From Fischerella sp. JS2 (GTDB taxonomy: Bacteria > Cyanobacteriota > Cyanobacteriia > Cyanobacteriales > Nostocaceae): a stretch of DNA of 64,000 bases. Shown piece by piece: positions 26,829 through 54,199 of this stretch. Below the pieces are notes generated by a model. It searched no databases. It was not told the DNA's origin and worked only from the letters and a program-made list of their open reading frames with translations. The position numbers and the translations under genes were made by a program. Location of the stretch: NCBI RefSeq assembly GCF_032393985.1, contig NZ_CP135918.1:6883724-6947723 (forward strand). Direction: 5' to 3'. How positions within the stretch are numbered: position 1 is the first letter of the stretch; the number at the start of each line of letters is the position of its first letter.

Positions 26829-27156
26829 GCGATCGCTAGTTGATTGGTACAGCGACATTTTTCAGCACATTCATTGGTCCGTGTTGTTTGAGAGTCTGCA
26901 TTTGTTGCTCGTTTCGCACAAACAAAGTCCCAGCAAATCCTAGTGAGTTGACTGGTATAGATGCAAAACATTCTTGCGATCGCGGTACGAGCAGCATCCA
27001 TTCTCGTGTCACCAAAAGATTGTAAGCTTTAGATTGTTTTTCTTTTAAACCGACTGCCTGTAGTAGAGAATGATAATACTCTAACGTTACTTGAGCAGCG
27101 GTAAATGGCGACTGCTCCCAGAGAGAATCTAGCGGTGCGAAAGCATGTACAAATTC

Positions 27157-27912
27157 GGCGTTGCATAATAGCGGTATGAATTGAGGTCAATTAATCATGG
27201 AATGTCCACGCTGTGGATCTTGTCATAACCGTAAGAATGGAAAGAAAAGAGGTAAACAGAATCACATTTGCTGTGATTGTGGTCGTCAATTCATTGATGT
27301 CTATAAACCACCCAGGGGCTACTCGGATGAAATCAAACAAGAATGCCTAAAAATGTACGTCAATGGTATGGGATTTCGTGGAATTGAAAGGGTGAAAAAC
27401 GTTCATCATACTACCATTATTCATTGGGTTAAACGAGTGGGTACACAATTGGCGGATACACCAAATTCAAAGGAAATTCCGCAGGTGGGAGAACTAGATG
27501 AATTAGAAACATTTATTGGTTCAAAAAAAATAAAATCTGGTTGTGGACGGCGGTAAATCACTTTACTCAAGGTATTCTTGCTTGGGTTTTAGGTGATCGT
27601 AGTTCGACTACTTTCCAACAGTTATGGAACATTGTCCAGTGTTGGCAGAGTTATTTTTACGTCACAGATGGATACCCTGTTTACCCTTGTTTTGTTCCTG
27701 ATGGTGACCAAATTGTGAGTAAGACCTACATGACACGAGTCGAAAATGAAAACACAAGGCTTAGACATTATTTGGCTCGTCTTCATCGTAAAACTTTATG
27801 TTATTCCAAAACTGAGGAAATGCTGAGATACTCTGTTCGATTGTTATTGCACTACCTCAAATATCGTTCTGTTCCCTTACCTGCCTAAAACATACCTTTA
27901 TTCAGCAACGCC
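27157..27912 (+). mobile_element. IS1-family insertion sequence, copy 1 (756 bp)
   Basis: The ends are imperfect inverted repeats (GGCGTTGCATAATAGCGGTA at the left; the complement of the right end reads GGCGTTGCTGAATAAAGGTA). The element is flanked on both sides by ACAAATTC, a perfect 8-bp target duplication at 27149-27156 and 27913-27920. It carries the two overlapping transposase frames. It is identical in length, and in both translated frames, to the copy at 31626-32381, which lies in the opposite orientation. Confidence 0.95.
27197..27888 (+). CDS. IS1-family transposase (two frames, programmed -1 frameshift)
   Basis: Frame A (27197-27556) begins with a zinc-ribbon, MECPRCGSCHNRKNGKKRGK, then a helix-turn-helix (GFRGIERVKNVHHTTIIHWV) and DELETFIGSKK. 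Frame B (from 27541) has AWVLGDRSSTTF, YVTDGYPVYPCF and RVENENTRLRHYLARL, the rest of the DDE catalytic core. An A8 run at 27523-27530 is the likely -1 slip site. It would give the continuous FIGSKKNKIWLWTAVNHF seen in IS1 InsAB' proteins. Frame A alone would act as a repressor, as in IS1. Confidence 0.92.
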
Positions 27913-28505
27913 ACAAATTCAAATCCTGGTAGAGTTGCGATCGAGTTATGAATTTGTGCAGATTTAAGTAGAGGTTCAATTGGTAGCTGCAATCCTGCTG
28001 TAGGTGTCAGTGGTAATGGCACAAGTTGCAAGTGTTTGTGTCTTTGACTAGCACCAGCGATCTTGCCGGCATTGTAGAATGCTAACCCATCAAATTGAGC
28101 CATACACGCCCACATAGCAGCAAAATCTGCTAAAGTCAGTAAACTTTCTTGTTCTTCAAAGGCACGGGTAATCAATAGCAAGTGATATTTAGCAACGTTG
28201 TATTTATTTAAAATACACACATGGGTATCAGAAATATCTGCAACAAATAAATCCTGTTCGTAGGGAAGAAAAGGATTAAAATCTTTGGGGGAGGAATTGT
28301 TTTGTTTTTCTTGTTTCTGCTTGAGTTCGTCCTTACGAGCTAGGTTAGACACAATCCGCACCAAAAAGCAAACACCGTTTTGCTCGATAAATTCCGATTC
28401 TGTCGGTATTGAAACCATAGCATTGGTAGCAAGAGCATGTTCAGTCTGCTGTTTGATTCTTGTCCAGAATGTATGAGCTTGCAGTAATATTTTTCCCTGT
28501 GCCAT

Positions 28506-29481: not shown

Positions 29482-29706
29482 ATGAATATCTCAGGTCGTA
29501 ATTACAATATAGAACCTTACGAAGATCCCAATATAGATCCCTATACAAACTCTAATCCAGAACCTTATGCTGATCCCAATGTGGAACCCTATGTAGATCC
29601 CAACCCAGAACCTTATGCTGATCCCAATGTGGAACCCTATGTAGATCCCAACCCAGAACCTTATGCCAACGCTAATAGGTATGAGAGTTACTCAGAAATT
29701 AGATAA
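29482..29706 (+). CDS. EPYxDPN-repeat small protein
   Basis: The 74-residue product is built almost wholly of an 8-residue repeat, (E/D)PY(x)DPN(x). It contains two exact 48-bp DNA repeats at 29560-29607 and 29608-29655. It is acidic and rich in Pro, Asn and Tyr, with no signal peptide or cysteine. There is only a weak ribosome site. It may be a real disordered repeat protein, or a fragment of a larger one left in this IS-damaged region. Function unknown. Confidence 0.45.
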   Translation: MNISGRNYNIEPYEDPNIDPYTNSNPEPYADPNVEPYVDPNPEPYADPNVEPYVDPNPEPYANANRYESYSEIR

Positions 29707-31466: not shown

Positions 31467-31625
31467 AAAACTGAGTTTCTTTAAAAGTTTATTTATTTAA
31501 GTAACAACATCTTGAGAGTAAAGCTGATGGTTACAATAACTAAAAACAACACTAAATCGTTCATTTACTCAACAAGAATTGACATTCCTGCAGAAATCCC
31601 ATCGCAAGTGAATACCTTATTTTTG

Positions 31626-32381
31626 GGCGTTGCTGAATAAAGGTATGTTTTAGGCAGGTAAGGGAACAGAACGATATTTGAGGTAGTGCAATAACAATCG
31701 AACAGAGTATCTCAGCATTTCCTCGGTTTTGGAATAACATAAAGTTTTACGATGAAGACGAGCCAAATAATGTCTAAGCCTTGTGTTTTCATTTTCGACT
31801 CGTGTCATGTAGGTCTTACTCACAATTTGGTCACCATCAGGAACAAAACAAGGGTAAACAGGGTATCCATCTGTGACGTAAAAATAACTCTGCCAACACT
31901 GGACAATGTTCCATAACTGTTGGAAAGTAGTCGAACTACGATCACCTAAAACCCAAGCAAGAATACCTTGAGTAAAGTGATTTACCGCCGTCCACAACCA
32001 GATTTTATTTTTTTTGAACCAATAAATGTTTCTAATTCATCTAGTTCTCCCACCTGCGGAATTTCCTTTGAATTTGGTGTATCCGCCAATTGTGTACCCA
32101 CTCGTTTAACCCAATGAATAATGGTAGTATGATGAACGTTTTTCACCCTTTCAATTCCACGAAATCCCATACCATTGACGTACATTTTTAGGCATTCTTG
32201 TTTGATTTCATCCGAGTAGCCCCTGGGTGGTTTATAGACATCAATGAATTGACGACCACAATCACAGCAAATGTGATTCTGTTTACCTCTTTTCTTTCCA
32301 TTCTTACGGTTATGACAAGATCCACAGCGTGGACATTCCATGATTAATTGACCTCAATTCATACCGCTATTATGCAACGCC
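31626..32381 (-). mobile_element. IS1-family insertion sequence, copy 2 (756 bp)
   Basis: It has the same length and ends as copy 1 but is inverted. It is flanked by TATTTTTG on both sides (31618-31625 and 32382-32389), a perfect 8-bp target duplication. Transposase frames are identical to copy 1 residue for residue. It interrupts a short frame that starts at ATG 31527 (MVTITKNNTKSFIYSTRIDI); after IS removal that frame still stops shortly after the site, so the target may be a small gene or spacer. Confidence 0.95.
31650..32341 (-). CDS. IS1-family transposase (copy 2, two frames)
   Basis: Frames 32341-31982 (zinc-ribbon and helix-turn-helix part, ending GSKKIKSGCGRR) and 31997-31650 (catalytic part) overlap by 16 bp. 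They would be joined by -1 slippage on the same A8 run as copy 1. The translations equal those of copy 1, so the element is intact and may be active. Confidence 0.92.
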
Positions 32382-32568
32382 TATTTTTGGCATACTAGGT
32401 ACTGAAGAACCACCAAGATCACCAAAAGTCGGAAAAAATCACATTTTGGGTTTTATTCATGGGAAAATTATGCCAAATTCTCTCTCCCTGTTACTGTCCG
32501 TTAACCTGACAAAACCTAGTTGATTTCGTCCTCTAAATTAATTCGGTGAAATAAGGATTTGTTCTGTT

Positions 32569-34059
32569 ATGTGTGTACATCCAATGGCTCGTAGGAACTT
32601 ACTATCTTGCTTAATAGTAGTTTCTCTAGTTTTGACAAGTGCCTGTTCTAATCAGAGTTCTAATCAGAATTCGACCAACAATACCAGCAACGCTGGCAGC
32701 AAAAAAGTAATTCGCATTGCGATCGGAACCCAAGATCAAACGATTAACACAGTAACGGGGGGTGCAGTCATTCGGGAAGAGAAACTTTTAGAAAAGTACT
32801 TACCCAAAACTGGAAAGTATGAAAATGTAGAATACAAAATCGAATGGACAAGCTATACATCAGGACCTCCGATAAACAATAAGATGCTGGCCAATCAAAT
32901 TGATATTGGTATGATGGGTGACTTTCCATTGACCATTAATGTGACAACTTTCCAGCAGAAGGGAAATGGTGTAAGAACTATTTACATTGGCAGCCTTGCC
33001 TATAGTCCAAATGGAGCAGGGAATGCTGTGGTAGTTCCCAAAAATAGCCCTATTAATTCTTTAACTGAGTTGAAAGGCAAGCAAGTTTCTGTACCTTTTG
33101 GTTCAGCAGCTCATGGAATGTTATTAAAAGCTTTAAGGGATGTAGGGATCAATCCGAATAAAGATGTAACTCTGATTAGCCAAAGTCCAGAAGTCGGAGG
33201 AAGCAGTTTGAAGACAGGTCAAATTGATGCTCATGCTAACTTTGTTCCTTTCGGCGAACTATTTCCTTTTCGGGGTTTTGCTCGTAAAATTTTTGACGGA
33301 GCACAGACAGGAGTTCCAACCTTTCATGGAGTATTAGTCCGCTCAGATTTTGCTCAAGAAAATCCGGAAATTGTTGTTGCTTATCTTAAAGCATTGTTAG
33401 AAGCAAATAAGATGTTCCGAGAACAGCCAGAGGCAATGGCCACTAAAATTGAGAAATGGTGTGGGGTTGAGCGTGAAGTAGTCTATATGTTTCTTGGTCC
33501 TTCCGGCTTACAACAGATTAATCCAACAATTCGTCAAGTTAACTTTGATGCTTTAAAAAATAGCGTTGTCACCTTAAAGCAATTAGGTCGATTAGATGCT
33601 AGTGTCAATCCCGAAGATGTGACAAAGTGGGGGGATGATAAATATTTGCGGCAAGCTATGAAAGAAGTTGGTCTAAATTATGATGAGGTTGCAAATGCAA
33701 AAGATTTTGTGATTTCCGGTGAAGATGCCCAAACTAAAGAACCGATTAAAGATCCGAAAATGGCAGCCCAACTTTGGCTCAAAGGTAACGATAAGGTGAT
33801 CAATTTTGCCTCAATCAAAAATATGATGATAATGTTACAAAAGCTGAAGACTGAAAATAAACAAGATAAAGGGGTAATTTTCGTTCACGATCGCAACAAT
33901 GGCTGGAAACTGCTTGCCGAAAATTCCTTCTATGTTCAAAATGGCAATGAAATTTCTGCATTCTTAACTCAGAAAGATGCTCAAGACTTTGCTCAAAAAT
34001 CAGGTGTCAAAGTTGTTGACTTTAAGGGACTACAGCAATTTTATGCTCAAACTCAGTAA
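32569..34059 (+). CDS. NitT/TauT-type ABC transporter substrate-binding lipoprotein
   Basis: The 496-residue protein (or 491 from the ATG at 32584) has a lipoprotein signal with lipobox VLTSAC (Cys26). A periplasmic-binding domain of the nitrate/sulfonate/taurine type follows: GMMGDFPLTINVTTFQQ, LTELKGKQVSVPFGSAAHGM, VGGSSLKTGQIDAHANFVPF, GVLVRSDFAQENPEIVVAYL. At about 496 residues it is much longer than the usual 320-340 of SsuA/TauA; the extra C-terminal part (about 350-496) is unassigned. It is the first gene of a six-gene plus-strand cluster. The ligand is unknown; a sulfonate or similar anion is plausible. Confidence 0.85.
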   Translation: MCVHPMARRNLLSCLIVVSLVLTSACSNQSSNQNSTNNTSNAGSKKVIRIAIGTQDQTINTVTGGAVIREEKLLEKYLPKTGKYENVEYKIEWTSYTSGPPINNKMLANQIDIGMMGDFPLTINVTTFQQKGNGVRTIYIGSLAYSPNGAGNAVVVPKNSPINSLTELKGKQVSVPFGSAAHGMLLKALRDVGINPNKDVTLISQSPEVGGSSLKTGQIDAHANFVPFGELFPFRGFARKIFDGAQTGVPTFHGVLVRSDFAQENPEIVVAYLKALLEANKMFREQPEAMATKIEKWCGVEREVVYMFLGPSGLQQINPTIRQVNFDALKNSVVTLKQLGRLDASVNPEDVTKWGDDKYLRQAMKEVGLNYDEVANAKDFVISGEDAQTKEPIKDPKMAAQLWLKGNDKVINFASIKNMMIMLQKLKTENKQDKGVIFVHDRNNGWKLLAENSFYVQNGNEISAFLTQKDAQDFAQKSGVKVVDFKGLQQFYAQTQ

Positions 34060-34165
34060 CCATCAAAGTTATAAAAATTAAAAATAGCTTTGAACATTGT
34101 TACAAAACAGCTGCGAGATTTATGAGAAGCTAAGTTGGGGACACCTAAATATCTAGAGGTATTCA

Positions 34166-35059
34166 ATGTCTGGCCCGTTTTCTGAGCGTTCTTCACTCAA
34201 GACCAAAGTGTTTGGAGGCTTCAGCGCCACAATCGCCCACTCATTGAATGTGTTACACCGCCGTGAGCGATTACCCTTGGAGTTCCTATTTAGTCCCAAA
34301 GGATTGCGAAGGGTTCTTTCTCTAGTGTTATTTTTTGGTGTTTGGCAATTTCTATGTACCATCAAATTCAACTTCTTTATTAATTTCGCGTTAATACCGT
34401 CACCCCTAGAAGTTCTGGGATCAACCATCGAGTTCTTCTCCAACAACCCGATGTTGCACATATGGGCAAGTGCAGCTCGGGTTCTGTCTGGCTTTGCGAT
34501 CGCTGCTTCGGTTGGTATCAGCCTGGGCATTTTAATAGGCTGGTTCCAACAGATTGAAGATTTGATATTTCTACCCTTGGAGTTATTAAGACCAATTCCC
34601 GCCGTTGCTTGGATTCCGCTAGCGATCCTGATGTTTCCCTCTTCTGAATCTGGAATGATTTATATCACATTCGTTGGTGCGTTCTTCCCAATTCTCATCA
34701 GTACAATCCGAGGTGTCGAGAATACAGATTTATTACTGCTGCGAGTGGGTCAATGCTTGGGGGCAAAGCAATGGCATTTGTTCAAAGATATTGTAGTGCC
34801 AGGAGCAATGCCAAGTATTGCCAGTGGTCTTGTGATTGGCATGGGTAACGCCTGGTTCTGCTTGGTAACGGCTGAAATTCTCGCAGGTCGTTATGGTATA
34901 GGCTATCTGACTTGGGAGTCCTATGTAACATCAAACTATCCCCCGATCGTGATGGGGATGTTACTAATTGGTTTAATGGGTGCTTCCAGTACCTATGCGG
35001 TTGATCGACTGACTCGGTTGTTCATGCCCTGGCGAGTAACGAAAAAGCAGAGTCGATAA
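34166..35059 (+). CDS. ABC transporter permease (SsuC/TauC/NrtB type)
   Basis: The 297-residue protein has about six membrane segments and the cytoplasmic EAA-type loop GAKQWHLFKDIVVPGAMPSI, which docks to the ATPase. LRPIPAVAWIPLAILMF is the signature of taurine/sulfonate/nitrate permeases. It lies 106 bp after the binding protein and 77 bp before the ATPase gene. Together the three make a complete importer in the plasma membrane. Confidence 0.9.
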   Translation: MSGPFSERSSLKTKVFGGFSATIAHSLNVLHRRERLPLEFLFSPKGLRRVLSLVLFFGVWQFLCTIKFNFFINFALIPSPLEVLGSTIEFFSNNPMLHIWASAARVLSGFAIAASVGISLGILIGWFQQIEDLIFLPLELLRPIPAVAWIPLAILMFPSSESGMIYITFVGAFFPILISTIRGVENTDLLLLRVGQCLGAKQWHLFKDIVVPGAMPSIASGLVIGMGNAWFCLVTAEILAGRYGIGYLTWESYVTSNYPPIVMGMLLIGLMGASSTYAVDRLTRLFMPWRVTKKQSR

Positions 35060-35136
35060 ATTCAGTTAACAGTTATCAGTTAACAATCAACTATCAACCA
35101 ACAATCTTTGCTGTACCTCCAGGAGATATATCACAA

Positions 35137-35955
35137 ATGGCTACGCTGGCAGATATAAGTTCGGTGCGATCGCTTAAAGGATCTGTTGAAATTGAGAATT
35201 TATCTGTATCTTTTAGGCGAAAGGGTCATACAGTGCAGGTTTTAGATTCTATCAATCTGCAAATCTATCCTGGTGAATTTGCTTGTTTGTTGGGACCCTC
35301 AGGCTGTGGTAAATCAACGATCCTAAATGTGATCGCAGGGTTCATTAAACCAACTAACGGCTCTGTCTTTGTTGACAAGCAACAAGTCACTACTCCTGGT
35401 GCAGACCGAGGGTTTGTTTTTCAGCAGTATTCTTTGTTACCTTGGAAAACCACATTTGAGAATGTCGAGTTTGGACTTAAGATTCAGGGATTACCGAAAT
35501 TACAACGGCAGGAGTTGGTGAATGATTACTTAAATAGAGTAGGTCTCTATAAGCACCGTCATTCTTACCCTCATCAACTTTCAGGAGGAATGCAGCAACG
35601 GGCAAGTATTGTTAGAGCATTGGTAAACTCTCCTTCAGTACTACTGATGGATGAACCTTTCGCAGCTTTAGATGCCCAAACACGTCAAATGATGCGGGAG
35701 CTTTTATTAACTATTTGGAGTAACCTCAAGCTAACAGTAATTTTTGTTACTCACGATATTGAAGAAGCCATTTTTCTGAGTGACAAAATTTTTGTCATGG
35801 GTTTTTATCCAGGTAATATCAAAGCAAAGATAGATATAGGCTTAGAGCGACCTCGTCATATAGATTGTTTATTATCCTCTGAATTTGCCAAACTGAATCG
35901 GCAAATTTTTGAATTAATTCGCGAAGAAACACTCAAAAGCATGGAGTTAGATTAA
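35137..35955 (+). CDS. ABC transporter ATP-binding protein (SsuB/TauB/NrtD type)
   Basis: The 272-residue ATPase has Walker A GPSGCGKST, Q-loop FVFQQYSLLPWKT, signature LSGGMQQR, Walker B VLLMDEPFAALD and the H-loop VTHDIEEA. It belongs to the nitrate/sulfonate/taurine class (the LLPWKT segment is typical). A CCAGGAG ribosome site precedes the ATG. It energises the adjacent permease. The redox genes follow 57 bp later. Confidence 0.93.
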   Translation: MATLADISSVRSLKGSVEIENLSVSFRRKGHTVQVLDSINLQIYPGEFACLLGPSGCGKSTILNVIAGFIKPTNGSVFVDKQQVTTPGADRGFVFQQYSLLPWKTTFENVEFGLKIQGLPKLQRQELVNDYLNRVGLYKHRHSYPHQLSGGMQQRASIVRALVNSPSVLLMDEPFAALDAQTRQMMRELLLTIWSNLKLTVIFVTHDIEEAIFLSDKIFVMGFYPGNIKAKIDIGLERPRHIDCLLSSEFAKLNRQIFELIREETLKSMELD

Positions 35956-36012
35956 TAACCAATATAAAGAGTATTTTCTCAGAAATTATTACAAATACTG
36001 AGGAGCTTGGAA

Positions 36013-37734
36013 GTGGATATTCAAATTAACACACAACGAATACAAACAGATGTTCTAGTCATTGGGGGGGGTACGGCTGGAACAATGGCAGCGATCAAGG
36101 CGAAGCAAGCTCATCCTGATGGTGATGTACTGATTTTAGAAAAGGCAAACATTCGTCGCAGTGGTGCGATCGCGATGGGTATGGATGGAGTCAACACAGC
36201 CGTTATCCCCGGCAATTCCACCCCAGAGCAGTATGTTCGCGAAGTGACAATTGCTAATGATGGCATCGTCAACCAAAAAGCAGTCTATCAAACAGGCAAG
36301 CTTGGCTTTGAAGTTATCCAAGAACTGGAAAGTTGGGGAGTTAAATTTCAAAAAGATACTCAAGGAAATTACGACTTAAAACAAGTGCATCGGGTAGGAA
36401 AATATGTATTACCGATGCCAGAAGGCAAGGATCTCAAAACAATTTTGACCCGTCAGGTAAAACGACATAAAGTCAGAGTCACTAATCGCGTCATGGCAAC
36501 TCGCGTGCTTGTGCAGAATGGGCGTGCGATCGGGGCAGTTGGGTTTGACGTGCGATCAGGGGATTTTGTCGTCATTCAAGCAAAGGCAGTAATTCTCTGT
36601 ACTGGAGCCTGTGGACGTTTGGGGCTGCCTTTGTCTGGCTACCTCTACGGCACCTATGAAAATCCCACAAATGCAGGCGATGGCTACTCAATGGCATATC
36701 ACGCCGGAGCAGAACTAACAAATATTGAGTGCTTTCAGATCAATCCATTGATCAAAGACTATAACGGACCCGCCTGTGCTTATGTTGCTGGTCCCTTTGG
36801 TGCTTACACCGCCAATGCTGAAGGTTATCGCTTCATCCGGTGTGATTATTGGAGCGGTCAAATGATGCTGGAGATTTGGAAGGAACTTAACTCTGGTAAA
36901 GGACCGATCCAACTCAAAATGACCCACCTTGATGAAGATACGATCGCAGAGATTGAATCTATTCTTTGGTCAAACGAGCGCCCTAGTCGTGGGCGATTCC
37001 ATGAAGGGCGAGGAGAAAATTACCGCACTCATGGCGTAGAAATGCACATTTCAGAGATTGGTTTGTGCAGTGGTCACAGCGCATCTGGCGTTTGGGTAAA
37101 TGAGAAAGCCGAAACGACAATACCAGGATTGTATGCAGCAGGGGATATGGCAAGTGTTCCCCATAATTACATGATTGGGGCATTTGTATTTGGACGATTA
37201 GCAGGTATCCATGCTGTAGACTATATCCAAGAATTGGAGCATATCGAGCCTGATTTAGACTTTTTAAAAGCAGAGAAAGCACGGATTTATGCTCCGCTCA
37301 CTCGCCCGAATGGTATCCCCCATACGCAAGTGGAGTATAAATTGCGCCGACTGGTTAACGATTATCTACAACCACCGAAGGTGGGTCACAAGATGGAAAT
37401 TGGGTTAAACTACTTTACCCGCTACAACGAAACTTTGGACATGATGGGTGCGCGTGATCCCCACGAACTCATGCGGTGTATGGAAGTTCACTTTATTCGG
37501 GATTGCGCAGAAATGGCAGCACGGTCATCGCTTTATCGGCGGGAAAGTCGTTGGGGATTATACCACTACCGATTAGATTACCCAGAGAAAAATAATGAGG
37601 AATGGTTCTGTCACATTAACTTGAAAAAGCATGAGTCGGGAGAAATGATTCTCTTTAAGCGCCAGGTTGAGCCATACGTGGTAGAAGTGGATTTAGAGAA
37701 AGAAGTCTATGATGTTGCGGTTCGTAAGAGATAA
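36013..37734 (+). CDS. APS-reductase-alpha / fumarate-reductase-like flavoprotein
   Basis: The frame opens at TTG 36007, but GTG 36013 has GAGGAG at the right distance and is preferred (573 residues). The FAD-binding N-terminus reads TDVLVIGGGTAGTMAAIKAK, followed by RRSGAIAMGMDGVN. The C-terminal FAD motif is GLYAAGDMASVPHNYMIGAF. This layout and the late HINLKKHESGEMILFKR region fit the AprA-like branch of the fumarate reductase/succinate dehydrogenase flavoproteins. A ferredoxin like the N-terminal part of AprB follows, so the two may form one enzyme. Substrate unknown. Position behind a sulfonate-type importer suggests an organosulfur or related redox reaction (inference). Confidence 0.8.
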   Translation: MDIQINTQRIQTDVLVIGGGTAGTMAAIKAKQAHPDGDVLILEKANIRRSGAIAMGMDGVNTAVIPGNSTPEQYVREVTIANDGIVNQKAVYQTGKLGFEVIQELESWGVKFQKDTQGNYDLKQVHRVGKYVLPMPEGKDLKTILTRQVKRHKVRVTNRVMATRVLVQNGRAIGAVGFDVRSGDFVVIQAKAVILCTGACGRLGLPLSGYLYGTYENPTNAGDGYSMAYHAGAELTNIECFQINPLIKDYNGPACAYVAGPFGAYTANAEGYRFIRCDYWSGQMMLEIWKELNSGKGPIQLKMTHLDEDTIAEIESILWSNERPSRGRFHEGRGENYRTHGVEMHISEIGLCSGHSASGVWVNEKAETTIPGLYAAGDMASVPHNYMIGAFVFGRLAGIHAVDYIQELEHIEPDLDFLKAEKARIYAPLTRPNGIPHTQVEYKLRRLVNDYLQPPKVGHKMEIGLNYFTRYNETLDMMGARDPHELMRCMEVHFIRDCAEMAARSSLYRRESRWGLYHYRLDYPEKNNEEWFCHINLKKHESGEMILFKRQVEPYVVEVDLEKEVYDVAVRKR

Positions 37735-37843
37735 GTGCTTTTTTAACGCAGAGGAGCGCGGAGGTTTTCGCAGAGGAACGCAGAGTTTTTGTGAATTTGT
37801 GTAATGTTGTAGTAGGTTATCAAAGCAAGGGGTATAAAATTTT
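37735..37843. repeat. CGCAGAGG dispersed repeat
   Basis: The 109-bp spacer holds AACGCAGAGGAGCGCGGAGG and GCAGAGGAACGCAGAG, copies of a dispersed repeat also found near 25545, 19900 and 58392-58517. Confidence 0.65.
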
Positions 37844-38071
37844 ATGGCTTTAGCAATCCAAAGAGTGGATGTTCCTGTGATTGTCGATGAGTCGAAGTGT
37901 CTGGAAAAATGTACAGCTTGCATTGAGGTTTGTCCGTTAGATGTGCTGGTGAAGAATCCAGAAACAGGCAAGGCATATATGAAGTACGATGAGTGCTGGT
38001 TCTGTTTGCCGTGTGAGAAGGAGTGTCCCACCAACGCTATTACTGTGCAAATTCCATTTTTGTTACGGTAA
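37844..38071 (+). CDS. Two-cluster [4Fe-4S] ferredoxin (AprB-like)
   Basis: The 75-residue protein has two cysteine sets: CLEKCTACIEVCP (CxxxCxxCxxxCP) and CWFCLPCEKECP (CxxCxxCxxxCP). It should carry two [4Fe-4S] clusters. The spacing resembles the ferredoxin part of APS reductase beta, which lies next to AprA in known operons. Here it follows the AprA-like gene by 109 bp and precedes the HEAT-repeat gene by 28 bp. It is the likely electron carrier or small subunit for the flavoprotein. Confidence 0.88.
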   Translation: MALAIQRVDVPVIVDESKCLEKCTACIEVCPLDVLVKNPETGKAYMKYDECWFCLPCEKECPTNAITVQIPFLLR

Positions 38072-38099
38072 TTAATTAGAGAAGATGTAAATAAAAAAC

Positions 38100-39074
38100 A
38101 TGTTTGCTGATACGGATTCTGAACTGAAGCAATGGTTAGATATGCTGGGATCGCCTGAGATAAGCGATCGCTTGGTTGCAGTCAAAGCCCTGCAACATTT
38201 AGGTGATGAGGCAGCGCTACAGCCGTTGATGACGGCACTACAGGATGAGAGTTTGGCGGTGCAAAAGTTAGCAGTAACAGCACTTTGGGAGTTGGCAAAC
38301 GAAAATGCTGTTCCAGCTTTATTGAGGTGCTTAGAATCACCTGATGCAGAGATTCGCCAAGAGGCGCTGTCAGCTTTGGGGGAGTTAGTTACACCGGATC
38401 ATCTGCTGTTGCTTTTGGATGTTCTGCAAAAGGACAATTTCCATGTCCAGATCAGTGTGCTGACTCTGCTAAGAAAAATTCATGATGCTCAGTTTCTACC
38501 TTATGTGTTACCCTTGTTGGAAGCAAAACAGGCAGCTTTACGAGAAGCAGCAGTGACTACACTCCGGTATCTCAACCAAGTGGAGCGGTGTCAGCCAATT
38601 CTGGCGCTGATGACAGACTCGGATGCAACGGTACGCCGTGCTGCTGCTCTCACTCTAGGGCATTTGGCAGACGAACAGGTGGTTAGTTTGCTATGTCAAG
38701 CTTTGACATCGGATGCTGATTGGCAGGTGCGCCGTAATGCAGCCCAATCTCTTGCCCTTCATGCATCGAGTGATGCATTGCCAGCCCTTGCGACTGCTCT
38801 GGAGGATGAACATTGGCAAGTCCGCAAATTTGCTATTCAAGTAATACAAAAAACGCCGGATGAGCGGTTTTTACCTAGATTAGTGAAAGCGTTGACTGAT
38901 GAATCTTCGGATGTCCGTCGAGATGCTGCGATCGCGCTTGGTATTCTCAAAAACCCCGCAGCGCTGAATGCGCTCCAGCAAGCGTTAGACGATCCGGATC
39001 GAGACGTGTGTATTTACGCACAACGAGCCATTCAAAGTATTCAAGAATCGCAAGGGGGAGGTACTCATGCCTAA
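38100..39074 (+). CDS. HEAT-repeat protein
   Basis: The 324-residue protein is built of about ten HEAT/PBS-lyase-like repeats of about 30 residues, such as DRLVAVKALQHLGDEAALQP, DAEIRQEALSALGELV, ATVRRAAALTLGHLADEQVV and SDVRRDAAIALGILKNPAAL. It has no membrane segment. HEAT proteins of this type act as scaffolds or, as CpcE/CpcF, as lyase subunits. In this cluster, 28 bp behind the ferredoxin, a chaperone or assembly role for the flavoprotein-ferredoxin complex is plausible but unproven. Confidence 0.88.
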   Translation: MFADTDSELKQWLDMLGSPEISDRLVAVKALQHLGDEAALQPLMTALQDESLAVQKLAVTALWELANENAVPALLRCLESPDAEIRQEALSALGELVTPDHLLLLLDVLQKDNFHVQISVLTLLRKIHDAQFLPYVLPLLEAKQAALREAAVTTLRYLNQVERCQPILALMTDSDATVRRAAALTLGHLADEQVVSLLCQALTSDADWQVRRNAAQSLALHASSDALPALATALEDEHWQVRKFAIQVIQKTPDERFLPRLVKALTDESSDVRRDAAIALGILKNPAALNALQQALDDPDRDVCIYAQRAIQSIQESQGGGTHA

Positions 39075-39261
39075 AGACGATTCTCCTTTTGGACAAGCTA
39101 GGTTATTATGGGTAATTGCCTACAATGAGGAGATATTAACGAACACAGATGCACACCGATGCATACAGATGGATTATGGGTTGGCTGCTTAGTTAATTGC
39201 CGATCCCTATTCCCCGTTGCCCTTGATCTGTGCTCCCTATTTTCAAGAGATTGCACAGAAG

Positions 39262-47615: not shown

Positions 47616-48632
47616 ATGCAACCAAATTCCGATTCCCGTCAACAAGAAGTAATCCAACTCCTCAAACAAGTCATCGAACCTACTCTCAAAAATGACATAG
47701 TGAATTTGGGAATGGTGAGAAACCTACGTATAGTCGATGACTATATTTATCTACGCTTATATATTGGTTGCCATCAGCATCAATTACAAGCAGAAATTCA
47801 ATCTGTACTATCATCTATATCTTGGTGTAAAAAAAATTACATTCAAATCTGCACAATTCCCGGTGTCAAAACAACTCTAGCAATTTCTAGCGGTAAAGGT
47901 GGTGTAGGCAAATCTACAACAGCCGTGAATATAGCTGCAGCTTTAAAGTTACAAGGTGCTAAAGTTGGTTTACTTGATGCTGATGTTTACGGTCCGAATG
48001 TACCGCAAATGTTGGGTTTGGGACAAGCTGATATTCAAGTTATTCAAACTCCCACAGGCGAGAAGTTTTTGCCGCTAGAAGTTCAAGGAATTAAACTCAT
48101 GTCAGTGGGTTTACTGACAGAAGCAAATCGTCCTTTGGCATGGCGCGGACCAGTGTTGCACAAAATTATTACTCAATTTTTGCAAGATGTAGAATGGGGC
48201 GAATTAGATTATTTGTTGATTGATTTACCGCCAGGAACAGGTGATGCTCAAATTACAATCATTCAAGAAAGTCCTATTTGTGGGGTAATTTTAGTGACGA
48301 CTCCCCAACAAGTTGTGATCGCAGATGTGCGACGGAATATTTATATGTTTCGCCAGGTGGGTGTTCCTATCCTGGGTATTATTGAAAATATGAGCTATTT
48401 AATATGTGGTGACTGTGGTTCACATACACCAATTTTTGGTAGTGGTGGCGGTGAACTACTTGCAGCAGAATTACAAGCGCCTCTACTAGGGCAAATTCCC
48501 ATTGATTCCCGCATTTGTAGCGGTGGTGATACTGGATACCCAATAGCAATAACTGATCGCACTTCGCTAGCAAGTAAAGTTTTTGTACAAATTGCTGTTG
48601 CGCTAAATGCTACTTTTAGCAGGTGCAGTTGA
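47616..48632 (+). CDS. mrp: Mrp/NBP35 family Fe-S cluster carrier ATPase
   Basis: The 338-residue protein has an N-terminal MIP18/DUF59-like domain (1-70), then a deviant Walker A (SSGKGGVGKST, 91-101). DADVYGPNVPQMLG, DYLLIDLPPGTGDAQ and the C-terminal ICGDCGSHTPIFG with a CxxC follow. Family members bind and transfer [4Fe-4S] clusters in the cytoplasm with ATP. The second set of motifs is complete, so it should be functional. It is monocistronic by context. Confidence 0.92.
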   Translation: MQPNSDSRQQEVIQLLKQVIEPTLKNDIVNLGMVRNLRIVDDYIYLRLYIGCHQHQLQAEIQSVLSSISWCKKNYIQICTIPGVKTTLAISSGKGGVGKSTTAVNIAAALKLQGAKVGLLDADVYGPNVPQMLGLGQADIQVIQTPTGEKFLPLEVQGIKLMSVGLLTEANRPLAWRGPVLHKIITQFLQDVEWGELDYLLIDLPPGTGDAQITIIQESPICGVILVTTPQQVVIADVRRNIYMFRQVGVPILGIIENMSYLICGDCGSHTPIFGSGGGELLAAELQAPLLGQIPIDSRICSGGDTGYPIAITDRTSLASKVFVQIAVALNATFSRCS

Positions 48633-51958: not shown

Positions 51959-52885
51959 ATGACTTTTAAAAAGCCGTTTGATTCACACCACCAGTGGGCA
52001 CAGACAACCTCAACCTCGGCAAATGCTACATCACCACCCCAGGAAATATTGTATCGCGTTGCCCATGCAATTGTTGGGCGTATCCGGTTTTGTATTCCTC
52101 GACTAGCAACAGATTCTGAGTATGCCGATCAACTCAAGATGGTAATGGAATCTGATTATAGGATTACAGATGTTCGTATTAATCCATTAGCTGCATCCAT
52201 TGTCATCAATTATACTTCAGAATTGATTTGTGATCAGCAAATGCGCTCTGATTTGGTAAATCTGATTCAAGCTGCTGCAAATACAGTGCTAATTCCCTTG
52301 GTTCGTGATCCTCAAACGGATAGTAACACTGTGCGAGTCAGTGAACTTTTGCGGCGATTTCTCGATCACCATCAAGGTGATGAAGTGCGCCTGCGGGATC
52401 TGTTTAACTTCATGGGATCTCGGTCGTTTGGCCCAACCCTACTGATCTGCGCCTTACCGGAAGCCTTACCTCTGCCAATCGCTGGAATTTCCGCCCTCGT
52501 TGCTATGCCCTTACTGCTGGTTTCCGGGCAATTAGTACTCGGATTCAGTCAACCCTGGCTGCCCGACTGGCTTTTGGATCAGCCCTTCAAAGGGGAACTT
52601 TGTCAGCAGGTTATTTCCGGGGCTATCCCTGTTCTAGAAAAGCTGGAATGCTTTTTTGAACCCCGGTGGTCGTTTTTTACAAGTCCTGAAGCACAACGGT
52701 GTGTGGGCGTGATTTTGTTACTTCTGGGGTTCATCATTGCCCTGCCAATTCCTTTTGGTAATATGCTGCCAGCGATCGCTATCGTTGTCATCTGTCTTGG
52801 CTTGATTGACAAAGACGGGTTGATAATTGCAATCAGTAGTCTAATTACCGGCATTACTGTAGCACTTCTATTGTTAGTCCTGTGA
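51959..52885 (+). CDS. HMA-like domain fused to an ExoD exopolysaccharide-synthesis domain
   Basis: The 308-residue protein has an N-terminal HMA_2-type ferredoxin-like domain (about 28-105: YRVAHAIVGRIRFCIPRLAT, TDVRINPLAASIVINY) without a CxxC metal site. An ExoD domain (about 125-308) follows: LRDLFNFMGSRSFGPTLLIC, ALPEALPLPIAG and four hydrophobic segments. ExoD proteins are membrane proteins of poorly known role in exopolysaccharide production and alkali tolerance. The fusion is unusual. The next gene carries the same N-terminal module. Confidence 0.82.
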   Translation: MTFKKPFDSHHQWAQTTSTSANATSPPQEILYRVAHAIVGRIRFCIPRLATDSEYADQLKMVMESDYRITDVRINPLAASIVINYTSELICDQQMRSDLVNLIQAAANTVLIPLVRDPQTDSNTVRVSELLRRFLDHHQGDEVRLRDLFNFMGSRSFGPTLLICALPEALPLPIAGISALVAMPLLLVSGQLVLGFSQPWLPDWLLDQPFKGELCQQVISGAIPVLEKLECFFEPRWSFFTSPEAQRCVGVILLLLGFIIALPIPFGNMLPAIAIVVICLGLIDKDGLIIAISSLITGITVALLLLVL

Positions 52886-53059
52886 TGTTAGTCGTGGGAT
52901 TAACAGCGATGGCAAATCAACACAACTACAGGTGAAAGCTTGACTTCTCCCCGATTTCAAGAAGGGGGAGGGAGTTCCCGCAGATGCAAAAGAGGACAAC
53001 AACGACTGTTCACTCAGTGAAAAACTGATTAATCCGAAAGTGGAAAAGCGTTTGTAATT
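52886..53059. other. Spacer with possible IS200/IS605-end sequence
   Basis: Contains AGCTTGACTTCTCCCCGATT and AAGAAGGGGGAGGGAGTTCC, which can pair as an imperfect hairpin and recall IS605-type ends. Too short to prove. Confidence 0.3.
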
Positions 53060-54199
53060 ATGACAGTTCAATCACAGAGAATAGATTATCAAGTTGTTCA
53101 TGCGATCGCTGGACGGATTCGCATTAAAATTCCTCGTCTGCAAATAGATCCCGACTATGCCGAGGCGTTACAGCGATTGGTGAAGTCTTTGGGTGCGGTA
53201 ACAGATGTGCATATTAATTATGCTAGTGCTTCGATTGTAGTTGAGTATAATACGAATGGCATTGAGAACAAAGCAATACAAAAAGAACTAGCAAACTGCA
53301 TTCAGCAAGCTGGTGGCATTGGAACAGCTGTGTCAGTTCGTAGCCAATCTTGTGATCAACATGTACCAGAAACAACCAACAAACATGATGCTTCCACCGA
53401 GGCGGTTTCTCCGGCTTTTGAGCAACCATTAAGTGAGTATTTAGCACAAACAAACAACAAACAGAATGCAAACACCTCAGTGGTTTCGGCGGCAAAGCAA
53501 CCTGAAAATAATGTTTCCAAGGTCTTAAACAAATCCATCCAAATCCAAATCCCTGATTCCTATTTATCTAGCGATCAATTCCCCATTAACGTCGATCTGG
53601 CTAGGAAAGTGTTTGAGGTTGGTATTCCCGCCGCCTACGTACTAAAACCTCTGAATGCTGAACTTGAATTGTTTGAAGCTGAAAATGAGAAAAACACACA
53701 GTTGCAGCGCATCAGACTTAAACTTGAAGCCTTTCTCAAGTCAGGAGGTTTTCTGGTCTACGGCAAAGCTTATGCTCAATTGAGACAATCTTTTGTTTTA
53801 AATCCTATAAGTCGCAAAAAACATTACACCCCCTGGGTTTCGATTACTGCTGTGGGGTTAGCAGAACTTGATGCCAGTGTTGTTGATGAAACAATCTGTG
53901 TTAACCTCAGCAAATTGAATATCTCTGCTGTTGAGGACCAGTGGTACAAAAAATTAGTCTTATATGCATTTGAGTTCTTCTTCAAAACCAAACTCGTAGC
54001 CAAAATTAACGATGCTTTATCTCAAATTAATGGTGTAAAGATCCAGCAACTTTTCTTTGAGATCAAAGGAGATGAAAAGTTACGCAAACGTGCTCAGGAG
54101 CTAGGTTTGTCTCAGGCGAGGCTAGATGAGTTGTTGGAGTTAGTCTCGGTCAACGCTAGAGTTTCTCCCGACTATTTGTGGCTATATGTTCAGCTTTAA
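53060..54199 (+). CDS. HMA-like domain protein with unknown C-terminal domain
   Basis: The 379-residue protein starts with a domain clearly paralogous to that of the preceding gene (DYQVVHAIAGRIRIKIPRLQ, TDVHINYASASIVVEY). A Gln/Asn/Thr-rich linker (about 95-175) and a C-terminal region (about 190-379) follow, with no membrane segment. The C-terminus (LGLSQARLDELLELVSVNAR, VSPDYLWLYVQL) is not recognised. The two genes share the module and orientation and are bracketed by direct repeats, so they probably act together. Function unknown. Confidence 0.7.
   Translation: MTVQSQRIDYQVVHAIAGRIRIKIPRLQIDPDYAEALQRLVKSLGAVTDVHINYASASIVVEYNTNGIENKAIQKELANCIQQAGGIGTAVSVRSQSCDQHVPETTNKHDASTEAVSPAFEQPLSEYLAQTNNKQNANTSVVSAAKQPENNVSKVLNKSIQIQIPDSYLSSDQFPINVDLARKVFEVGIPAAYVLKPLNAELELFEAENEKNTQLQRIRLKLEAFLKSGGFLVYGKAYAQLRQSFVLNPISRKKHYTPWVSITAVGLAELDASVVDETICVNLSKLNISAVEDQWYKKLVLYAFEFFFKTKLVAKINDALSQINGVKIQQLFFEIKGDEKLRKRAQELGLSQARLDELLELVSVNARVSPDYLWLYVQL

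Follow-up and report, generated by a model that had tools for sequence, protein, structure and literature searches.

What is taken up, and what is then converted, by six consecutive genes of the cyanobacterium Fischerella sp. JS2 that join an ATP-binding cassette (ABC) importer to a flavoprotein, a ferredoxin and a HEAT-repeat protein? The question was raised by a stretch of 64,000 nucleotides (contig NZ_CP135918.1 of assembly GCF_032393985.1, positions 6,883,724 to 6,947,723 of the forward strand), referred to in the following as the window; positions are counted from its first letter. The cluster is read here, with about even confidence, as a system for the uptake of a sulfonate-like organosulfur compound and for its reduction in the cytoplasm with electrons from ferredoxin, perhaps with desulfonation. 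It is a widely kept system of known families, and its core is a variant of AprA (the alpha subunit of adenosine 5'-phosphosulfate, APS, reductase) and of 3'-phosphoadenosine 5'-phosphosulfate (PAPS) reductase with an importer of its own.

Six open reading frames (ORFs) were located at 32569-39074, all on the plus strand and separated by 106, 77, 51, 109 and 28 bp; these coordinates confirmed the first-pass annotation of the window, which had described six genes on one strand with gaps of 28-109 bp. The six proteins were assigned to families with Pfam and NCBIfam profiles:

32569..34059, plus strand: substrate-binding lipoprotein, SsuA/TauA-like (NMT1 fold), 496 residues, with a long C-terminal extension
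33754..34035, plus strand: NosL-like C-terminal domain of the binding protein, residues 396-489 (Pfam PF05573)
34166..35059, plus strand: ABC permease (PF00528, BPD_transp_1)
35137..35955, plus strand: ABC ATPase (PF00005)
36007..37734, plus strand: AprA/PAPS-reductase-alpha-like flavoprotein, the core enzyme, with a TTG start (FAD_binding_2 and Succ_DH_flav_C)
37844..38071, plus strand: two-cluster [4Fe-4S] ferredoxin with the AprB-type CWxC tryptophan, Trp52 (Pfam and motif)
38100..39074, plus strand: HEAT-repeat protein, fused to the flavoprotein in Tsukamurella (PF13646, eight stretches)

At least 587 stretches of the genome collection encode a relative of the flavoprotein; the best 80 were used, and partner genes in the loci were located by tblastn. 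Where at least 8 kb were available on both sides of the flavoprotein gene, window included, the ferredoxin and HEAT genes lay within 8 kb of it in 59 of 59 loci and all six genes in 36, so that the co-occurrence which the first-pass annotation had left to be examined was found throughout for the flavoprotein, ferredoxin and HEAT protein (the trio) and in 36 loci for the full set. Among all 89 loci, again with the window, the ferredoxin gene was within 8 kb in 85 and the HEAT gene in 83; in each of the six loci without one of the partners the contig ends within 8 kb, L069 among them, which keeps more than 4.6 kb on each side. In eight annotated regions either the six genes were present, in this or a different order, or the trio stood with other genes.

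The distribution among cyanobacteria is patchy. The flavoprotein was present in 16 of the 60 nearest genomes (own genome included) and, at E <= 1e-60, in 24 of 386 genomes of the phylum, 17 at an identity of at least 84% (own genome included) and seven at 30-34%. The long binding protein was found in six of 386 genomes, all among the 17 close flavoprotein carriers (Fisher p 2.8e-9) and each time within about 6 kb of the flavoprotein; the four of these six loci that were inspected had the gene set in order. The set of 386 genomes was taken as identical for the flavoprotein, binding-protein and SsuD searches, based on equal number and shared handles. In the plasmid collection the flavoprotein occurred in 51 records, a few of them chromosome-sized, from rhizobia (some from root nodules), Paraburkholderia, Acinetobacter, Methylocystis, Acidithiobacillus, Tsukamurella and cyanobacteria. 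Two Prochlorococcus genomes (AG-412-J13, L080; AG-469-F22, L082) also carry it; their flavoprotein nests among Nodosilinea/Leptolyngbya relatives, which suggests acquisition by transfer. In both, the set adjoins an amidase and a TauA-like protein that scores below the TauA cut-off. Carriage by phages was considered as well; one scan of viral contigs gave 23 pattern matches and 0 relatives.

The flavoprotein scored 1018.8 bits against NF006131 (PRK08275), well over the cut-off of 587, and stayed below the AprA cut-offs (NF005331, 319.9 against 557; TIGR02061, 190.8 against 641.75). Its best PDB match, by sequence and by fold, was 8a8o_A, the alpha subunit of the PAPS reductase of Methanothermococcus thermolithotrophicus; the APS reductase of A. 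fulgidus was second by both measures, and fumarate reductase came next by fold. The structural model of the flavoprotein had a predicted local distance difference test score (pLDDT) of 74.6 and a predicted template modelling score (pTM) of 0.84, with low values in parts of the pocket, where ligand placement was not possible.

A tree of 127 rows, 122 of them different, was calculated with a quick method. Family rows were those scoring above 600 bits (113 plus the window, some identical), and the outgroup consisted of four true AprA, seven PAPS-reductase-like rows and one SdhA and one NadB, the latter two taken from the window's own genome and placed on long branches. One PAPS-reductase-like row scored 697 bits against the 8a8o PAPS reductase, and the other six were labelled by grouping. 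Within the limits set by the method and the long outgroup branches, the 114 family rows formed a clade of their own with a branch support of 100 in the Shimodaira-Hasegawa-like approximate likelihood ratio test. In the AprA tree asked for by the first-pass annotation, SdhA and NadB thus fell outside the flavoprotein's clade. The four AprA rows came from three genomes that carry the family flavoprotein too. The seven genomes of one family (f49; L031-L037) have flavoproteins 30-34% identical to that of the window, with the AprA-type arginine present; the one tested was very near the Methanothermococcus PAPS reductase, at 697 bits.

Residues of the AprA pocket were compared by alignment column, with AprA numbering counted by eye. 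In AprA, Arg265 is the residue that we take to hold sulfate, and His398 and Asn74 presumably have roles as well. The Arg265 column was Leu in 114 of 114 family rows and Arg in all four AprA and all seven PAPS-reductase-like rows, and the Trp234 column was Tyr in every family row; Asn and His were kept in all 114 at the Asn74 and His398 columns. Three cysteines distinguish the family, Cys242 (113 of 114 rows), Cys257 and Cys354 (114 of 114 each), with no Cys at these places in the outgroup rows. At the place where SdhA of the window's genome has HGANRLGSNSL, a stretch that carries the substrate-carboxylate arginine of fumarate reductase and succinate dehydrogenase, the flavoprotein reads PHNYMIGAF, of which P, H, N, Y, M, G, A and F were invariant among 39 rows. 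The structure alignments comprised 39 of 72 flavoprotein and 38 of 38 binding-protein references, window counted; the reference list itself excluded short, weak or frame-broken matches.

Compared with characterized enzymes, the flavoprotein most resembles the M. thermolithotrophicus PAPS reductase, its closest solved relative. That enzyme has a FAD-containing (flavin adenine dinucleotide) alpha subunit and a beta subunit with two [4Fe-4S] clusters, with Trp42 proposed in electron transfer (PMC10322725); the window family differs by Leu at the arginine column, by its importer and by the HEAT partner. With dissimilatory AprBA it shares the fold, FAD, the CWxC motif and the Asn74 and His398 columns, but the Arg265 and Trp234 columns are changed, the clade is separate, and both kinds occur together in three genomes. 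PRK08275, whose cut-off the flavoprotein exceeds, and PRK13800 are sequence families named after fumarate reductase; we know of no tested function for either.

In the ferredoxin, the eight cluster cysteines and the tryptophan of the CWxC motif (Trp52) were conserved in 85 of 85 rows, window included; these were the matches, from 89 loci, of at least 95 bits and 66 residues. The motif reads CWEC in four of four AprB-like frames adjoining AprA genes. The best NCBIfam scores, for HgcB (37.9 against a cut-off of 99) and AprB (TIGR02060, 37.4 against 135.65), were both far under the cut-offs, and the best PDB matches were FwdF polyferredoxins. The likeness to the two subunits of AprAB, proposed in the first-pass annotation, is clear for the flavoprotein and AprA; for the ferredoxin and AprB it is weak by score and is carried by the CWxC motif and the gene pairing. 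The HEAT protein matched positions 610-896 of the fusion family PRK13800, and in Tsukamurella (L044) HEAT part and flavoprotein form one fused protein, which exceeds the PRK13800 cut-off. An assembly factor acting on the flavoprotein, as had been suggested for the HEAT protein, would fit this fusion.

On the importer side, the binding protein scored 145.7 bits against SsuA_fam (cut-off 163.5) and 88.1 against TauA (cut-off 304.25). A sequence search placed it nearest TauA and SsuA, its model (pLDDT 85.5) had TauA 6ssy and SsuA 3ksx as closest folds, and a lipobox, LTSAC, was found by eye. It had been noted to exceed the usual length of its family by about 150 residues; this was borne out, and the extra part contains a NosL-like domain (residues 396-489, 26.3 bits against the PF05573 cut-off of 24) that explains most of the added length. 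The NosL match was found at E <= 0.01 in 23 of 38 binding-protein members scanned. NosL has conserved copper-binding Met and Cys residues. Copper delivery by the NosL-like part drew no support from conservation in a weak test, with no invariant Met or Cys there in alignments of seven and 38 rows in which the ligand columns were unmapped. For the permease the nearest NCBIfam models were SaoP, NtrB, SsuC and TauC, each under its cut-off; for the ATPase they were SaoA, TauB and NtrCD, with the best 25 of 188 matches all under the cut-offs. An importer of the sulfate kind was not indicated by the NCBIfam scores of the window proteins. The cluster thus shares its importer families with SsuABC and TauABC, and in some operons the trio is linked to SsuD; it differs in a binding protein that scores under the cut-offs and bears a NosL-like domain, and in its enzyme, a flavoprotein with a ferredoxin, where SsuD and TauD are oxygenases.

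The genes around the cluster bear on the substrate. Many neighbourhoods contain organosulfur genes, namely SsuA, SsuD, sulfite or sulfate exporters and encapsulins. In L118 and L088 a set of the ssuA-ssuD-permease-ATPase type leads without interruption into the flavoprotein. The L118 genes encode, in this order, SsuA, SsuD, permease, ATPase, flavoprotein, ferredoxin and HEAT protein, with SsuA and SsuD over their cut-offs; in L088 SsuD (over the cut-off), permease, ATPase and flavoprotein are followed by the contig end; and in L086 and L091 genes of this type lie upstream of the flavoprotein, some 2-2.6 kb away. Nostoc edaphicum encodes an SsuA over the cut-off directly upstream of the cluster. 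Exporter genes of the YeiH-like and TauE types were found in 12 and nine of 43 cyanobacterial loci, and in 0 and one of 45 other loci (one actinobacterial locus apart, as in all counts of other loci). Type 2A encapsulin with cysteine desulfurase occurred in seven of the 45 non-cyanobacterial loci. In L102, L114, L117, L118, L120, L121 and L123 the flavoprotein is accompanied, within 8 kb or nearby, by type 2A encapsulin, cysteine desulfurase and a protein of hexapeptide repeats that may be a serine acetyltransferase. The neighbour columns labelled SsuA and LysRSBP were unused for counts, since either query can be matched by the long binding protein.

Other recurrent neighbours concern iron-sulfur supply, electron supply and regulation. 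An Mrp-type Fe-S protein in cyanobacteria (within 8 kb of the flavoprotein in 36 of 43 loci) or a DUF971 protein in Proteobacteria (29 of 45 other loci) often belongs to the cluster as well, and a GntR-UTRA regulator was present in 38 of the 45. FdxA was encoded in ten and a pyridine-nucleotide flavoprotein of 1194 residues in eight of 45 non-cyanobacterial loci. The latter resembles glutamate-synthase-beta-type and FAD/NAD-binding electron-transfer proteins; four of its eight loci are named Acidithiobacillus, Hydrogenophilales, Halothiobacillus or Thiobacillus, and the rest belong to unclassified Proteobacteria or Burkholderiales. Together with FdxA, this protein may supply reduced ferredoxin from NAD(P)H. 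Many cyanobacterial clusters include LysR regulators of about 630-690 residues with a binding-protein-like second half. In ten or more loci (L038, L040, L047, L057, L080, L082 and L164-L167) their genes separate those of ATPase and flavoprotein or lie upstream of the latter, and where matched the second half is 33-36% identical to the window's binding protein. The fusions in L047 (7851-9785), L057 (1797-3695) and L080 (7770-9746) have a second half related to the cluster's binding protein. These fusions suggest that the imported compound may also act as an inducer; none was found in the window's genome.

An association with the oxygenase SsuD was also observed. SsuD scored over the cut-off in 30 of 386 genomes of the phylum, in a search in which E. 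coli and two further positive controls were detected. It was present in 14 of 17 flavoprotein carriers and in 16 of 369 other genomes (Fisher p 6e-15, uncorrected for kinship), with the 17 genomes at an identity of at least 84% taken as carriers and the seven at 30-34% counted as non-carriers. All 11 carriers without the long binding protein had SsuD, and three of six carriers with it, including the window's genome, lacked SsuD; the window's genome encodes two TauD-superfamily proteins. In the 14 genomes, SsuD and flavoprotein were 1.5-44 kb apart in five, far apart on the same contig in two and on different contigs in seven.

From these data the following mechanism is proposed. The binding lipoprotein would catch the compound, and permease and ATPase would import it. 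Flavoprotein and small ferredoxin would form an AprAB-like enzyme in which electrons pass from cellular ferredoxin through two [4Fe-4S] clusters and Trp52 to FAD. The reduced FAD would act on the substrate, most likely freeing sulfite, which would enter normal sulfur assimilation or be exported. The HEAT protein may bind the flavoprotein as a subunit or assembly partner, and Mrp, or DUF971 in Proteobacteria, may provide the Fe-S clusters; both roles are plausible. That the substrate is an organosulfur compound is fairly likely. A reductive direction of the redox step is likely, because the operons of non-photosynthetic carriers contain the additional FdxA and 1194-residue protein, whereas cyanobacteria would draw on photosynthetic ferredoxin. 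Release of sulfite by attack of the reduced flavin on sulfur is less likely than these two points, because the arginine to which a part in the flavin attack is ascribed in AprA is gone. The import and redox conversion of an organosulfur compound suggested in the first-pass annotation are thus partly supported, by the many organosulfur neighbourhoods and the AprAB-like pair, while the substrate and the redox direction we only infer.

Several observations weigh against this reading. The window's binding protein is under every SsuA and TauA cut-off, the AprB score of the ferredoxin does not exceed its HgcB score, and the model of the flavoprotein is weak around the pocket. The presumed sulfate arginine of AprA is replaced by Leu, so that the likeness to AprA does not imply that a sulfonate is attacked in the AprA manner. 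Some neighbourhood members are weak by score, namely the SsuD-like protein of L066 (238 against 518.2), TauD of L063 (254.1 against 313) and YeiH of L056 (216.2 against 232.6), and the 1194-residue protein is under all cut-offs (best 584.5 against 1072). Exporters of sulfite or sulfate are found in a minority of loci, with a single non-cyanobacterial one. The SsuD association is not freed from the effect of kinship, and SsuD is far off or on another contig in nine of 14 genomes; the presence of SsuD next to the trio in some operons shows that the trio does not just take the place of SsuD. Sulfur oxidisers (Thiobacillus, Halothiobacillus, Acidithiobacillus) and the two Prochlorococcus genomes carry the flavoprotein, although neither group is expected to lack sulfur, which weakens an explanation by scavenging alone.

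Among the rival explanations, an oxidative direction survives best, fairly unlikely as it is. The flavoprotein would then dehydrogenate the imported sulfonate, as an amine or alcohol, and pass the electrons to ferredoxin. AprAB-type enzymes are taken to run both ways, amidase or GNAT genes are present in some cluster neighbourhoods, and the 1194-residue protein could also accept electrons. However, ferredoxins with two [4Fe-4S] clusters are usually low-potential donors, FdxA and the 1194-residue protein in operons of chemolithotroph lineages resemble an electron supply, and the sulfite export genes nearby suggest sulfite as the product.

A reductase of the fumarate reductase type, acting on a C=C or similar bond of an imported organic acid with sulfur as an incidental feature, is quite unlikely. 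It would agree with the flavoprotein superfamily and with the NCBI family name (fumarate reductase/succinate dehydrogenase flavoprotein), but not with a clade apart from SdhA and NadB (one row each), the absence of the HGANRLGSNSL stretch, or the lack of a membrane anchor or SdhB-like gene among the six. The separate clade and the missing motif likewise disfavoured identity with fumarate reductase or NadB.

Very little probability is given to uptake and redox conversion of an organometal or metalloid compound in place of a sulfur compound, by a system comparable to the predicted SAO organometallic ABC system as outlined in PMC13188914. The ABC subunits are distantly similar, with SaoP nearest to the permease and SaoA nearest to the ATPase, yet all Sao scores are far under the cut-offs (SaoA 264.5 against 360, SaoP 127.3 against 295, SaoX 20.3 against 300), on which ground identity with SAO was rejected. 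The three almost invariant cysteines lie at or near columns of AprA pocket residues, and NosL and MerB have a common fold; against this, a MerB-like family was found by Pfam in 0 of 20 representatives of recurrent neighbours, and many neighbours are of the organosulfur kind.

It is equally improbable that the trio handles sulfite set free by SsuD or TauD, either for detoxification or for conversion via a flavin-sulfite adduct. Co-occurrence with SsuD, sometimes in a common operon, and sulfite exporters nearby would be expected in this case, but the trio has its own importer in many loci, and half of the six genomes with the long binding protein, the window's among them, are without SsuD. Recruitment of an ordinary APS or PAPS reductase for sulfate assimilation, for which fold and type of partner speak, is scarcely credible, because all 114 family rows have Leu at the Arg265 column, and is further disfavoured by Tyr at the Trp234 column, the AprA scores under the cut-offs, the separate clade, the presence of true AprA as well as the family flavoprotein in three genomes and an importer not of the sulfate kind.

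The locus of Fischerella sp. JS2 is rearranged downstream of the trio. Relative to Fischerella muscicola (L087), a chemotaxis block at 39.3-46.7 kb, with genes of the CheA, methyl-accepting chemotaxis protein, CheW and response-regulator types, is inverted. The break lies within the cluster's Mrp gene, of which about the first dozen codons remain after the HEAT gene, whereas L087 has Mrp in full; the same break was found in G002, a genome of the same genus. Two further features belong here:

39067..39101, plus strand: what is left of the start of the cluster's Mrp gene, sharing 8 nt with the end of the HEAT gene (the same junction is present in Fischerella muscicola L087)
47616..48632, plus strand: second Mrp-type Fe-S carrier, a possible replacement with a putative link to the cluster (sequence comparison)

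The second Mrp, at the far end of the inversion, is 73% identical to the L087 Mrp; with the Mrp proteins of nine cyanobacterial loci that lack the long binding protein (L039, L051, L063, L064, L066, L070, L071, L075 and L083) it shares 85-91% identity. Upstream of the cluster, an IS1-type element (DDE_Tnp_IS1) is present in two inverted copies (27142-27917 and 31621-32396), about 99% alike and 3.7 kb apart, the second of which ends about 170 bp before the binding-protein gene; plasmids of Pseudanabaena and Leptolyngbya likewise have annotated IS1-family transposases immediately before the cluster. Elsewhere in the window, a small ORF of tandem EPYxDPN-type repeats was found at 29482-29706, and two adjoining genes at 51959-54199 encode HMA_2 heavy-metal-associated domains, in one of them linked to an ExoD domain.

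No description of the trio or the cluster was found in the open-licence literature. The main texts of three expression studies on sulfur sources (PMC7661421, PMC8557817, PMC11852219) do not contain 'fumarate reductase', and use flavoprotein, ferredoxin and heat in other senses only. If the favoured reading is true, the family would be a third branch of the AprA/PAPS reductases with a different substrate and an importer of its own, found in cyanobacteria, Proteobacteria and Actinobacteria alike. Bacteria have been reported to assimilate sulfur from sulfonates in the absence of oxygen, and the flavoprotein would be a concrete enzyme candidate for it. An undescribed oxygen-independent desulfonation, in which an AprA-like flavoprotein without the sulfate arginine cuts the bond to sulfur with electrons from ferredoxin and frees sulfite, is possible but doubtful; if true, this route would exist in distant phyla, including free-living cyanobacteria, plant symbionts and Prochlorococcus. 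The finding may also bear on plant symbioses, as the trio is located on rhizobial plasmids, some from root nodules, and beside SsuA in Nostoc edaphicum, and as a sulfonate gene of Nostoc is required for moss colonisation (PMC7784912).

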